Assembly: GCA_964036045.1 (NCBI GenBank)
Contig: OZ038385.1
Location: 4,278,001-4,342,000, forward strand
DNA length: 64,000 nucleotides
Direction of reading: 5' to 3'
DNA from: Eutreptiella sp. 'Long Island Sound 2002'
Taxonomy: Eukaryota > Euglenozoa > Euglenophyceae > Eutreptiales > Eutreptiaceae
Below, one piece after another: positions 35,601 to 41,600 of this stretch (position 1 is the stretch's first letter; each line of letters opens with the position of its first letter). Below the pieces are notes generated by a model. The model ran no database searches and was not told the origin of the DNA. It saw nothing but the letters and a program-made list of their open reading frames with translations. The position numbers and the translations under genes are program-made.

Positions 35601-38600
35601 GGGCATGCAAAATGAGCACAACGCAACAAATAACTAATGTGAGCTACGTAGAACTCTGCATCAACAATGATCTTTTGAGTTTTTTGAGCCATCATCAAAC
35701 GTTGTTGTGTTAATTTTACGATGCACTATGTACCATTGCAATGAACTATGTGCCATTGGTATTGTACTATGTTGTCCTTAAAGACGAGCACACATGTGTT
35801 TCGGAGGGAGTGTACTATTTTTGTAAACCCCATATGGGGACCTGACACATCCACTGGCCACCACGCCCACGTCAGGGTTGCATTTGGAGTTGAAATCCAG
35901 TCCAACGCGGCTGAAATGTAGTGTACTGCCACCACCAGGGGTGAAGGCTTTGGATTGGGAGGGGGCTGGGGGGGAAAGAACAAGGACAACAGCCTAACGC
36001 AGATTGCCCCGCAGGGAAGCCGCTGGACGCAATGGGGAACGGCAACGTGGAGTACCCTGCCCAAGGGGAGGGGGGGGACAACACACTTGATGTACTGTGA
36101 GTGATGTCAGAGTGATTCTGGAGGGTAGCGACAATTGCTGATCAAGGGGAGGTGGGGTTACTCCACAAGGGCATGAGGGAGAGCTATTTCCGACTGCTAC
36201 AACCACAGAACCATTTTCAAGTCCGGTCAGACGGACAAACGGTGTCTGCGGCATCTCCGAGAACTTGGAGGCAGGCAATTGCCCTCCATGTGGGTCGGGA
36301 GGTAGGATTGGGCTTGCGGTCGTCGAGAGGAATTTCGGCCTAGTTTTTTTTGGCAACGGAATAGTTACCGTCACTGCACACCCTGTTCTAGGTCGTCAAC
36401 ACCGTGAAGTTCAAGGCCCCCCTCAATTTGCAAGGGACGGTGCGGGTGGAGGTCGGGTGGAAACCCTGCACAGATCCGTCGAAAGGTCGCCGTGTGGATG
36501 TCAAGTTTGAGCGCTGCGAGTTCAATGTCGCCGGCCTCCCGAAGCTGGACATCCCTCTGGGACCAATTGGCCCTCCAGGTTGTGCGCATGCGCGCTTTGG
36601 TGTGCCTGTATGCACGTGTGCGTGTATGTGTTTCACGAGATTCACTGAGCTGCCTTGCCTGCCTGTCTGTGGTTTGGTCCGGTTGTCTTGCCTCAGTTGT
36701 ATGTGTGTGTGTGTGTGTGTGTGTGTGTGCGCGCGCGCACACGCGACCGCGGGCTGCACAACGGAGCTGCTGGCCACTGCTCTCTTTCCCTCGTTGCAGA
36801 AAGTGTGTGTCATGCGCTTCTTCTTGCTGTTCTTCCTGATATGTGTTTGACAAGGCCGAGTATCACAGGCTGCTTTGATACAGTGCATGTTTGTCGCGTA
36901 TATCGTATTTGTGTGTGTGTGTGTGTGTGTGTGTGTGTGTGTATGTGTGTGTGTGTGTGTGTGTGTGTGTGTGTGTGTGTGTGTGTGTGTGTGTGTGTGT
37001 GTGTGTGTGTGTGTGTGTGTGTGCCACCGTTCAAGATGCGGCAAATGCTGCGTTGCCTCGATCAGAGTTCGAATTGTTTCTGATGGAAGAAGAAGAGACA
37101 CGGACCCAGGTATCCCCATTGAAAGATGATACCGATATGGAGCGCTCAACAGTCACGGGGACGAAACGAGCAAATGACGGGGATAGTGAGGACAGCGGAG
37201 GCCCTGCAGCTCGTGTCAAGAGGAGACACGGGAAGACGGGGGACAGAGTCGTCGACACCGGGATCCGACACATTCACAGCCATAGGCCCACCAAAAACGC
37301 CAGAGAAGGCGACGAGGAGTAGCCAGTCAGCAAGCCAGCACACAAGCCAGCACACAAGTCCTGCAAGTGCCCTGTCCTCACCAGTGCATAACATTATGAA
37401 GAACAAACCAGCAGGGGACGAGCCTTGGCTCCTCATGGAACCAACACCAAAGAGCGCGTGGAGTGACCAGGCAATGGATTTGCTGTTACGGGAATGGACA
37501 AAGTCTTGCGATTTTCGTCTGTCGTGGTGGGTTGACAAGCATTGTGGTCTGCAAATGGCAGCAACAGCACGAGCGGTGGCTACAGAGTGTGACCTCACCG
37601 AGGAGAAAGTTGGGGGCATTCGTGCCATCCGGACAAAAAGCCGCATGCCGCCGAGGGCGTTCACCAATCTACCAGCGGTGCCTACCGGTGCCCCACCGAA
37701 CAGTCAAGAGAGCGTGCAGAGCGACACACAAGGAGACCCTGTACTTGTTCGGTGTTCTTCAGCCGACCCACCGGATGCGGGAACAGTGCCGGATGCCGTC
37801 CTGGCTATAATGCTCAGCCTGCAGTGGGTACAGCAGAAGCTGGGCCTAGATACAGTGATCCTACGCACTACAACAGAGTGTGGAGGGTCACCCCACGAGA
37901 ACACACACCACCCGCTCCATTACACACACAACAGTGACTCACATGCCAATTTGTTGACTACCAAGGGTGCTCCACAGATACAAACGGTCCCAGATTATAT
38001 CGCCCGAAAGGTCCTACACACGTTGTCCGGAACATGCATTTGGTTTTCCGCGGTATTTTGCGTCACGGCGTGCAATTTTCCGCTTTGTTCTGGGGTGTGT
38101 CATGACGACACATTAAATAGCTCTCCATATGCAGTCGCGCACTTTGCTGACATCAAACACAGGTTAGTTTCAAATAATTTACCGCATAGCTTTGAGCACA
38201 TTTGGTTCTGGGTCCCTTATTGTCTTTGCAGTGAGCTCATGCAGGCCAACCTAGACGTTAAGAGAATAGGGACCATCAAAAAAGGGGTTGCCGGGCCCAT
38301 TCATTTATATTGCACTGCACAGGCCGTGAGGGCCATCACAGAGGTGCAATGCCTTCGTCCGAGTTTGCTGTTCCGTGAGTACGGCGCTTCCCTTTTTCCT
38401 GATGTTACTCCTCCCCACAGTACGGGCATTTTGAGGGCATTGACTCGTCAAGTGCGCACAACATTACGTGAACCGAATTTGGGGAAGTGGGGACAATTGT
38501 TACAGGAGCGCACCCGCTTTCTGCCGTGGAGATACAGCAAAAGCCCACGAGAGATCCGTTGGCTAGTGTTTACAGGTGACTGGCACGTGTGCTGCACCCC

Positions 38601-41600
38601 ACCCCCCCCCGCATATTGCATATACGCCGTGTACCATTTGTATTACAGTGTTGTACATATCGGTATCACCACGTCTGCCCCGATACGGAGGCTAAGGAAG
38701 CATATGACTGACGCCCTTGCACAGACAGATGAGGCAACCCTTCATGAATTTATGTCATACAGCAATCTGGAAGACTGGGGAATAGCCCCGTTGGAGTCAC
38801 AGACAGCTGGTGGGCGGCAGTCAGGGAGAAGTGGTGGTGGTATGTTTTAGGCGATGGGCCCTGAATGATGTTGCGCCAAGCATCCTTGATAGGGAAGAGG
38901 CGGGAAAAAACAGGGGTTGGTTGAACCTGAAGTTTCTGCGTCTCCTTCATGATATTAGGGAGGCATGGGGCAATGGTGATCACACCAGGAGAAAGTGTTT
39001 ACACACAGGGCTGGAGCTGCTGGGAGGGACCTAAGCATCCCTATTCACATTGCTAGCAACATTGTGATCCCGAATTTAACCCCTGATCAGAAGACATCTG
39101 TTTACAGGGTAGCCAGGAAGATTGTTAAATCAACCAACACAAAGGCCTGGGAAAAACAAGCACTAATGAAATTGATTCGGGTGGTGAGATCAAGCCCACA
39201 TAATTTGGCAGTAGAGTTCTCCAGACAGGCAAGAAAAGATGATATGCGCAAGGTGAAACCAGATTGTACATGCCACCAGATGGTGCACCCTAAAAATTAT
39301 GGTACGGTGCTCATGACCGATGGATGTATAGCGCTGGCCCCCATTTCTATCTCTGACCTTACGGGTGCCCGCTTGCGGCTGAAAGATCCACTGCCCGTTA
39401 CAAGCAGGCAGGCACGGAAAACGGCCGTCTCCGCTCTGGAGCGATTTGCTTCTCAAGTGCAGGGGACGGTCCCAGATCTTGACTCCCTCTTGCCCAAGGG
39501 GTTATTCTCAGATTGGGGTACCCTCCTCCACATAGTGCGCCGCACAGTGCACACCATATCAAAACACCTGTACGTCAGGATTGTTGATAAGGGGGCAAGG
39601 GAGTTGTGGGGTTTTTGCAAAAAATGGCTGTGGCGACAAACGGAACAGTTCCTGCGTGCTGAGAAATATATATCAGAGGACGCGACAACAGAGGAAATCG
39701 TGGCTGAGACGGTAAAACTCATTAAGGAACACAGTTGGAATGCGAATCCACGGGCACGGTTTTGTGTGCTGTACATTATCGGTAAAGCAAAAAGTTTGAG
39801 AAAGCAGATATGGCTCTGGAGACCCATTGCCGAATCTCCAGAACCACAAATCCGGAAGCGCGACTTGCGTACAGCGGCGCGAGCTTACACGTGTTTCCTG
39901 AAACACCTGATCAATGAGATTCCGAATAGTTTCCAGGTTTTGAAGGTTAATGATGTGGCGAGTTGGCTGGAGTGGGTGAACCAACAGGGCATGAAATCGG
40001 TAACCGAACTTGACTGTAAGGAACAGTTTAACAAGATTCAGCCAGGTTGGGTTGACAAGCATATGTCCGAAAGGATACAGTTTCTCACCAAGCGTAGGCG
40101 GTGGCGGATGGCTGAAGTGACTTGGAGCGTTCATCATTCCTTTTCTGCTTCGGACAGGCCAGGGATGGGCACAAATAAACAGTTCAGATATTTTACGCAT
40201 TAAGAGCTCAGCAGGTATGTGTCATTCGAATTGCAAAAAAACAACAAGTGCTGGGCGGTGGGACAGCTGTGGAGCCGCGACAAATGCATCCCAATAGGCG
40301 GGAGCTTCTAGGCACAAAGTGCAGATTTGCATTCCATGTGGGTAGCATACACAGGTAGACAGGAGTTCGCCGCCTGGGTGCATTGACAATGTCCCCGGAG
40401 GGGTACATATACTAGTTGGGCAAATGGAAGGTCGCGATGTGCCAGTTCCGCGACAACATTCTAGTTGCATCCGATGCTGACCCGTCTGACTGTAAAGAAC
40501 TAGTCGGGCTCGTAAAATCAGTTTTGAAAAAAACATGGGGATTGCCTGTGGAATGTGCCTGTGCAGATAAACAAGGTATGTGTCAAGGGACCTGCCTGGG
40601 GCCAGTGATCATATGCATGGGCTTCTGCATAGCTCTAGGGGGTGCTAGGGGAGGACTTAACCACATCCAGCCTGCAGCACTAACGGATGACTGGAGTTTG
40701 CACCTCGGTCCATCCCTCATGTCCCCAAAAGATGCCTATAAAAGATACCTCAGTGGAATATTTACCGGCGCACTGGCGAACGGAAGACTCTGGGTGCGTA
40801 CGTGGTCGGGGCAAATCGTCAGCACGTTGGCCGGGCTCCAAACAGCCCTCCTATCTGGTTACGGGCGGGGAGACAGCATGCGGGGTATACACCGTGCACT
40901 GCACAGAGCCTTCGGCGCAGAGCCACATTTTTTGTAGGCAACAGTAAAGGCGGTGTATTCAATTTCATACCGGTTGCTGGGGAAGAAATGTGTCGTGATT
41001 AGCCATGTCCAACAGTGGCTTAGGAGGAATGCACACTGGTATGGAACTTCGGGCGTACGAGGTGGTATGGAATTACGACTGGAGGCACTAGACATGGTGC
41101 GCCGCCAGAGCTACTCCGACGCAGCGTGTGTGTGTATGGCCCCATGGTGACGGGTGGGTTTTGCAAGCTCCAGTTTCCGAATCGTCTGGGCGGTGCAGGG
41201 AGTGCGGGGCAGGGTCTAGTGGGGAGGGGGGCAGGGGAGGGACTGGGCTGGAGCACACAGGCACTGGCTTACCCATTGTTTTCCTGCTTGCACGGGTGGA
41301 CACTGGACCGCCCCAACCGCTGGTGCCTACTGGCCGTGTACTTGTTGTACCGCAGAAAGGCGCCTAGCCACATGCTTTTACACTCCTTCTTCTACTTTCT
41401 TTTGGCCTGGCGAGATTCGTTAGCGACCAGTGCAGTGCTCTGTTTGTCACGCCTGTTCGTCTCGCTTCAATTGTGTGTGTGTGTGTGTGTGTGTGTGTGT
41501 GTGTGTGTGTGTGTGTGTGTGTGTGTGTGTGTGTGTGTGTGTGTGTATGTGTGTGTGTGTGTGTGTGTGTGTGTGTGTGTGTGTGTGTGTGTGTGTGTGT

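Follow-up and report, generated by a model that had tools for sequence, protein, structure and literature searches.

The window analysed here is a stretch of 64,000 nucleotides from the euglenid Eutreptiella sp. 'Long Island Sound 2002' (contig OZ038385.1, positions 4,278,001 to 4,342,000 of the forward strand), and the subject of this report is a retroelement within it. A sequence-only reading had placed a Penelope-like element (PLE) at window positions 37024-41471, with its GIY-YIG endonuclease before, rather than after, the reverse transcriptase (RT) and a CxC motif between them. These coordinates are exact, the interval filling the gap between two (TG)n arrays of 114 bp and 160 bp. The features are listed below with the basis for each in brackets; ORF denotes an open reading frame and pLTR a pseudo-long terminal repeat.

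36910..37023, no strand: (TG)n array, 5' junction, target microsatellite (repeat position)
37125..37671, plus strand: ORF1 remnant, C-terminal part, corresponding to about residues 310-490 of a relative's ORF1 (tblastn with the ORF1 of L049/L032, 55-61% identity)
37681..38805, plus strand: N-terminal part of ORF2, function unknown, with the first half of the GIY-YIG domain (tblastn)
38617..38840, plus strand: GIY-YIG endonuclease motifs CIY, HIG, RLRKH and VREKWWW, split over two frames (raw motifs; Pfam PF01541 in relatives)
38846..39025, plus strand: ORF2 linker block in a different frame (tblastn)
39022..40368, plus strand: ORF2 linker with CxC, telomerase-like RNA-binding region and RT fingers/palm with motifs 1, 2, A and B (tblastn and motifs; domain names from a relative's model)
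39265..39273, plus strand: CxC motif, CTC (raw motif)
40006..40032, plus strand: RT motif A, ELDCKEQFN (frame 1)
40368..41144, plus strand: remainder of ORF2 in a different frame, with RT motif C, thumb and C-terminus (tblastn and motifs)
41346..41471, plus strand: conserved 3'-terminal stretch of the element (matches in 12 distinct loci)
41353..41355, plus strand: CAG matching the putative trans-splice acceptor of relatives, CAG|AAAGGCGCC (comparison with relatives)
41355..41414, plus strand: hammerhead-like motif of the 3' pLTR, GAAAGGCGCCTAGCC at 41355-41369 and GGCCTGGCGAG from 41404 (core decayed in this copy)
41472..41631, no strand: (TG)n array, 3' junction (repeat position)

The reading frames of the window copy are broken, and all of the motifs named in the sequence-only reading are present. 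In the raw sequence, the GIY-YIG motifs CIYAVYH (38617-38637), VVHIGITT (38650-38673) and RLRKHMTD (38689-38712) are in frame 1, and WWAAVREKWWW (38808-38840) is in frame 3. On the RT side there are a DKG within VDKGARE (39583-39603), YIIGKAKS (39772-39795) and WRPIAES (39817-39837), and the motif C region reads QFRDN (40443-40457, frame 3). Using the ORF2 of relative L032 as the query, tblastn identifies four main blocks across 37681-41144, in three frames and with 51-68% identity. The zinc knuckles, the front of ORF1 and the 5' pLTR are missing, therefore this copy is 5'-truncated at the TG array. Its hammerhead core, CTGGCGA, is decayed.

Searches were made of the organism's own genome (2.28 Gb in 2205 contigs). 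With 102 of 3408 candidates scored, the RT part has at least 104 matches there, several lying in frames that stay open for over 1000 amino acids, and 21 database proteins match with E values of 6e-138 to 1e-20; the window observation is therefore not due to chance. A further protein database search, in which 7995 candidates were scored, returned at least 80 proteins, all with E values below 1e-50, which are taken as one family, one that may exist outside this genome. A full-length profile search returned one protein. Two family members, the JGI metagenome proteins P0008 and P0056, come from short metagenome contigs.

Seven loci were fetched, of which L037 is broken and L033 was left out, the remaining five (L031, L032, L034, L035, and L036) making up the intact set. 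Each has an unbroken ORF2 of 1217-1322 amino acids from stop to stop, which agrees with the view of the window copy as a decayed member of a family with intact copies elsewhere. In all five, the GIY-YIG domain is upstream of the RT with CxC between them in a single open frame, as in the window copy, and none of the five lacks the upstream nuclease. The order within ORF2, from an alignment without L034, is a part of some 350-380 residues with no assigned function, then GIY-YIG, linker, CxC, DKG, RT, and C-terminus. The frame of L035 begins inside a TG array, thus this copy has itself been cut at the front.

A profile search gave no Pfam match for the window's own four ORFs, and the window copy alone would not prove its identity, but the database relative P0020 passes the GIY-YIG (PF01541) cut-off with 25.1 against 22.6 bits. 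The five intact own-genome ORFs score below this cut-off at the same place (21.9, 18.5, 18.6, 18.5, and 15.8 bits), and the GIY-YIG catalytic motifs are aligned across the family. CxC is found in at least 30 of the 35 aligned rows with letters, C577 and C579 being invariant in alignment A2, and xDKG in at least 33 of 45 such rows. A DKG motif upstream of the RT core is a feature of Penelope-like elements. Motif C is mostly FRDN across the family and never xDD. No invariant CCHH pattern was seen in the nuclease when alignment A2 was inspected by eye.

An AlphaFold model of a relative is good in its RT part, where the closest folds are those of telomerase (TERT), at ranks 1-18 in Foldseek and 1-15 in VIA, with LINE (long interspersed element), R2, and group II enzymes ranking behind. 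In the nuclease part, residues 87-171 of the model have a strand-strand-helix-helix-strand-helix order, at low confidence. An earlier AlphaFold model (P0022, 22 sequences) had a pLDDT of 51.6 and gave no Foldseek match under 1e-3, and PDB sequence searches with L032, A2, and A5 returned nothing relevant.

The relatives follow the plan (TG)n, 5' pLTR, ORF1, ORF2, 3' pLTR, (TG)n; in L036 the two arrays enclose a 505-bp pLTR, ORF1, ORF2, and a second pLTR. At the two loci tested, the pLTRs are 99.2% identical over 505 bp (L036) and 99.7% identical over 376 bp (L049/L032), and identity above 99% suggests that these insertions are recent. ORF1 has 404 amino acids from the chosen Met in L036 and 496 in L049/L032. 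Both contain gag-like zinc knuckles in a shared order, three of the form CX2CX4HX4C and one variant, with a likely coiled coil after them as judged by eye; Pfam found nothing above its cut-offs for the two ORF1 stretches tried. A nested array lies at L049 1564-2099, where part of a pLTR from another subfamily, (TG)n, a decayed short element of the kind described below, and (TG)n are followed directly by the full-length element. At the pLTR start of L036, L003, L022, L028, and L030, a short TG run leads into a perfect hairpin whose loop is GTTA/GTAA. Such 5'-end hairpins, found at six sites with two stem kinds against 0-2 per randomisation, are weak and are not used as support here; pLTR 5'-end palindromes have been reported (PMC3846280).

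Conservation of the element's DNA is highest in the stretch ahead of the final (TG)n. Separate matches starting at 41323-41346 and running into the TG array have 78-89% identity in 10 loci, against about 66% for coding DNA, and 73-74% identity in L009 and L011, these 3'-terminus values being raised by the aligned part of the array. Two blocks, GAAAGGCGCCTAGCC and GGCCTGANGAG, are conserved across subfamilies. The region fits a hammerhead arranged as GAA, stem III, UA, stem I, CUGANGA, in which stem III is AGGCGCCU, AGGUACCU, or AGACGUCU, all palindromes, and stem I is GCC/GGC, UGGUCU/AGGCCA, or GGACAGC/GCUGUUC. The variable core base corresponds to hammerhead N7 and is C in eight, T in two, and G in two of 12 rows chosen after the motif was seen. 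A pattern scan over 270 kb found 28 matches, where 20 randomisations gave none, although these are related copies from loci that in part overlap and the counts are not independent. Among 38 unique forms collected without a demand for pairing, 28 had a palindromic stem III and the other 10 were dropped. For stem I, 76 of 81 positions are paired in 27 unique arm pairs, against a shuffle mean of 59.7, with none of 2000 shuffles reaching 76. By these comparisons stems I and III covary, the aligned core has invariant columns, and the pLTR carries a hammerhead-like core, for which ribozyme activity is conjectural.

The sequence TTTCTGAGTGTCTATTTTTTTTCG, printed within the E. gracilis spliced leader (SL) in PMC6242988, occurs 3283 times in the genome and not at all in the reversed control. 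Eight of 10 leader copies fetched are SL-RNA gene repeats, seven of these with GT directly after the leader. In L025 the leader is joined to AAAGGCGCC, at the point that in genomic pLTRs has the form CAG|AAAGGCGCC and is preceded by a pyrimidine-rich tract. An exact match to the joined sequence, TTTTTTTTCGAAAGGCGCCYAGCC, is present at 83 genomic sites and absent from the reversed control. These genomic fusions show that the joint at CAG|AAAGGCGCC existed in RNA that was copied.

The first 15 listed of the 83 fusions, referred to here as SL-tail copies, were examined. In the 45 bp upstream, every one of the 15 has a (TG) run of three or more units, compared with 4.1% of random window positions; with the window copy lying between (TG)n arrays, the microsatellite bias named in the sequence-only reading is evident. 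Twelve lead after 86-156 nt into (GT) repeated four or more times; the runs of the remaining three are shorter. These 12 are short insertions of about 124-194 bp, from leader to PLE tail, and belong to several subfamilies. Read most simply, an RNA trans-spliced at the 3' pLTR would be recognised through its tail, and a copy of it inserted in TG repeats. Parallels are the mobility in trans of Adineta pLTRs, which are sufficient for transposition (PMC3846280), and the Terminons, in which 3' hammerheads precede target-like repeats (PMC6431247). The SL-tail copies are a genomic record of reverse-transcribed RNA from leader to tail, in which the PLE template can be read directly. At two other loci (L047 and L048) spliced leaders are joined to other sequences, probably as retrocopies of trans-spliced mRNAs. 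At L045, about 1501-1565 on the reverse strand, the leader is joined to ACTGATGAGGGCCTAGTGTTGGGCCGAAACCGGTCTCG, which by eye resembles a type I hammerhead with one mismatch in stem II, a palindromic stem III, and a stem I formed partly by the leader's CG; it has no Rfam match at E<=1.

The interval is read here as a dead, 5'-truncated N-terminal-endonuclease PLE and, with the cycle that follows included, this reading is given a probability of roughly 0.8. Its identification as a PLE is supported by the fit of order, fold, pLTRs, and target. In the proposed cycle, the pLTR would be transcribed and the host leader joined at CAG|AAAGGCGCC within it, giving a capped mRNA for ORF1 and ORF2. A (TG)n/(CA)n microsatellite, the observed location of the copies, would be nicked, presumably by the GIY-YIG enzyme. 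The 3' end of the RNA, (UG)n just downstream of the hammerhead-like fold, could then anneal to the nicked (CA) strand and prime reverse transcription, early stops of which would generate 5'-truncated copies such as that in the window. Trans-splicing at the acceptor in the 3' pLTR would instead give a short SL-tail RNA, which the same machinery may insert in trans in the manner of a short interspersed element (SINE).

A simpler account is that this is a plain Chlamys-type N-terminal-endonuclease PLE in which the GAAAGGCGCCTAGCC...CTGANGAG blocks are an RT recognition signal and a splice site, not a relic of a ribozyme. This is a serious competitor, if the less probable one. Such PLEs are known from algae, and two results weigh against the hammerhead part of the reading preferred here. 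No Rfam hammerhead was found in the window at the gathering score, in seven loci at E<=10, or in three loci at E<=1, although Rfam is silent even on L045, which was read by eye as a hammerhead, and its silence therefore says little. In addition, there is no excess of stem II pairing, its own arms pairing no better than re-paired arms in both the pre-splice and the SL forms. On the other hand, the conserved blocks agree with the hammerhead core position by position, with the variable base of CTGANGAG at N7, stems I and III covary, and the scan matches, albeit from related copies, have no counterpart in the randomisations. Alternatively, the SL-tail copies could have been moved by another retrotransposon acting on any trans-spliced RNA, with the PLE uninvolved. 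The leaders joined to other sequences in L047 and L048 indicate that other trans-spliced RNAs have seemingly been copied too, but all 15 SL-tail copies examined adjoin TG repeats, and in their 3' part they carry PLE 3' termini from several families, which close with TG runs like those of the PLE, making this explanation improbable. Least credible by far is an RT derived from LINEs, group II introns, or a domesticated, host telomerase-like gene, which was considered for the weak Pfam RVT_1 matches (E 0.043 and 0.088) and the FRDN motif C and dropped on the fold ranking, the GIY-YIG fusion, and the dispersed multicopy family with pLTRs.

Within the preferred reading of a trans-spliced PLE, a further and rather unlikely extension is that SL trans-splicing and the hammerhead are one device, the host leader completing and gating an element-encoded ribozyme or RNA fold. 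In most subfamilies seen, the acceptor CAG|AAAGG is exactly inside the core. Splicing would swap A11.1-G12 for the last two bases of the leader, C-G, so that a mismatched A11.1 could become a standard C11.1-G10.1 pair, and the leader might in this way decide whether the outcome is an mRNA, a cleaved RNA, or a short SL-tail RNA with the mobility of a SINE. Two observations speak against this: the genomic form of L037 already has C at position 11.1, and stem II was not found.

N-terminal-endonuclease PLEs (Naiad and Chlamys) have a microsatellite insertion bias and an insertion-in-fingers domain, and the Chlamys nuclease is not known to carry the CCHH motif. In the account of Craig et al. 2021, they reportedly have no canonical hammerheads. 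The family described here resembles Chlamys, as that group is generally described, in the GIY-YIG before the RT, the CxC between, the algal host, the microsatellite bias, and probably the absence of an obvious CCHH. It differs from that description in its euglenid host, separate zinc-knuckle ORF1, FRDN motif C, hammerhead-like pLTR motif, SL trans-splicing, and SL-tail derivatives. The permuted order and CxC are also shared with Naiad, whereas here no CCHH pattern was seen in the nuclease and the host is a protist. The hammerhead of canonical Penelope/Poseidon elements is of type I, another permutation than the one here. Like this family, those endonuclease-containing elements have pLTRs, tandem copies, a hammerhead in the pLTR, in some families a palindromic pLTR 5' end, and pLTRs able to act in trans (PMC11167929, PMC3846280), but their GIY-YIG domain is C-terminal.

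The Terminons and endonuclease-deficient PLEs resemble this family in having a 3'-terminal hammerhead followed by a short repeat able to pair with the target, extra ORFs, and 5' truncation at repeats (PMC6431247). Terminons differ in their telomere target, their size of up to 40 kb, and their description as endonuclease-deficient, GIY-YIG-like enzymes being only accessory (PMC6431247). Retrozymes and small hammerhead retroelements are also short non-autonomous copies with a hammerhead-type motif (PMC6155905, PMC4918200, PMC7229834), whereas the copies here are located in TG repeats and have a spliced leader at their start.

The sequence-only reading had expected an extension of the host range. 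In this respect the step is a smaller one than supposed, as Chlamys-type PLEs were reported in 2025 from Ectocarpus, an alga that also has a complex plastid (PMC12477816). PMC6431247 describes one-ORF PLEs as well as two-ORF PLEs that have no nuclease; a PLE combining a fused nuclease with a gag-like ORF1 was not met in the literature covered, which does not include Craig et al. 2021. Literature searches, judged by title and the start of the abstract, found nothing on topic among the papers listed for Euglena with Penelope, hammerhead ribozyme, or spliced leader and retrotransposon, nor for Penelope-like with trans-splicing or dinoflagellate. Penelope is not mentioned in the main text of the E. 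gracilis genome paper (PMC11252322). Within the reach of these searches, the connection with the spliced leader is the chief novelty; also new are the occurrence in a euglenid, an ORF1 with zinc knuckles next to a fused nuclease, FRDN, and the hammerhead-like motif of the pLTR. Permuted Penelope-like elements are thereby brought into Euglenozoa, a deep eukaryotic branch. The family bears on the choice of microsatellites by PLEs, the role of hammerheads in pLTRs, and the ways in which a retroelement can adapt to trans-splicing of mRNAs in its host. Its RT, which lacks the second catalytic aspartate (FRDN), is also open to testing.

The element is flanked in the window by PAP_fibrillin (PF04755) matches at 32270-32461 (E 9e-6) and 42609-42695 (E 2e-8), both on the plus strand, and apparently sits in an intron of a PAP/fibrillin gene, in the same direction as the gene. 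A likely third exon, judged by eye and without a Pfam match, is at 36392-36580. In L033, the locus left out of the intact set, a GGTTAG tandem repeat at 5509-5564 forms a telomere-like interstitial array. Elsewhere in the window, an iron/manganese superoxide dismutase exon is present at 54875-55120 on the plus strand (PF00081, E 3.5e-25).

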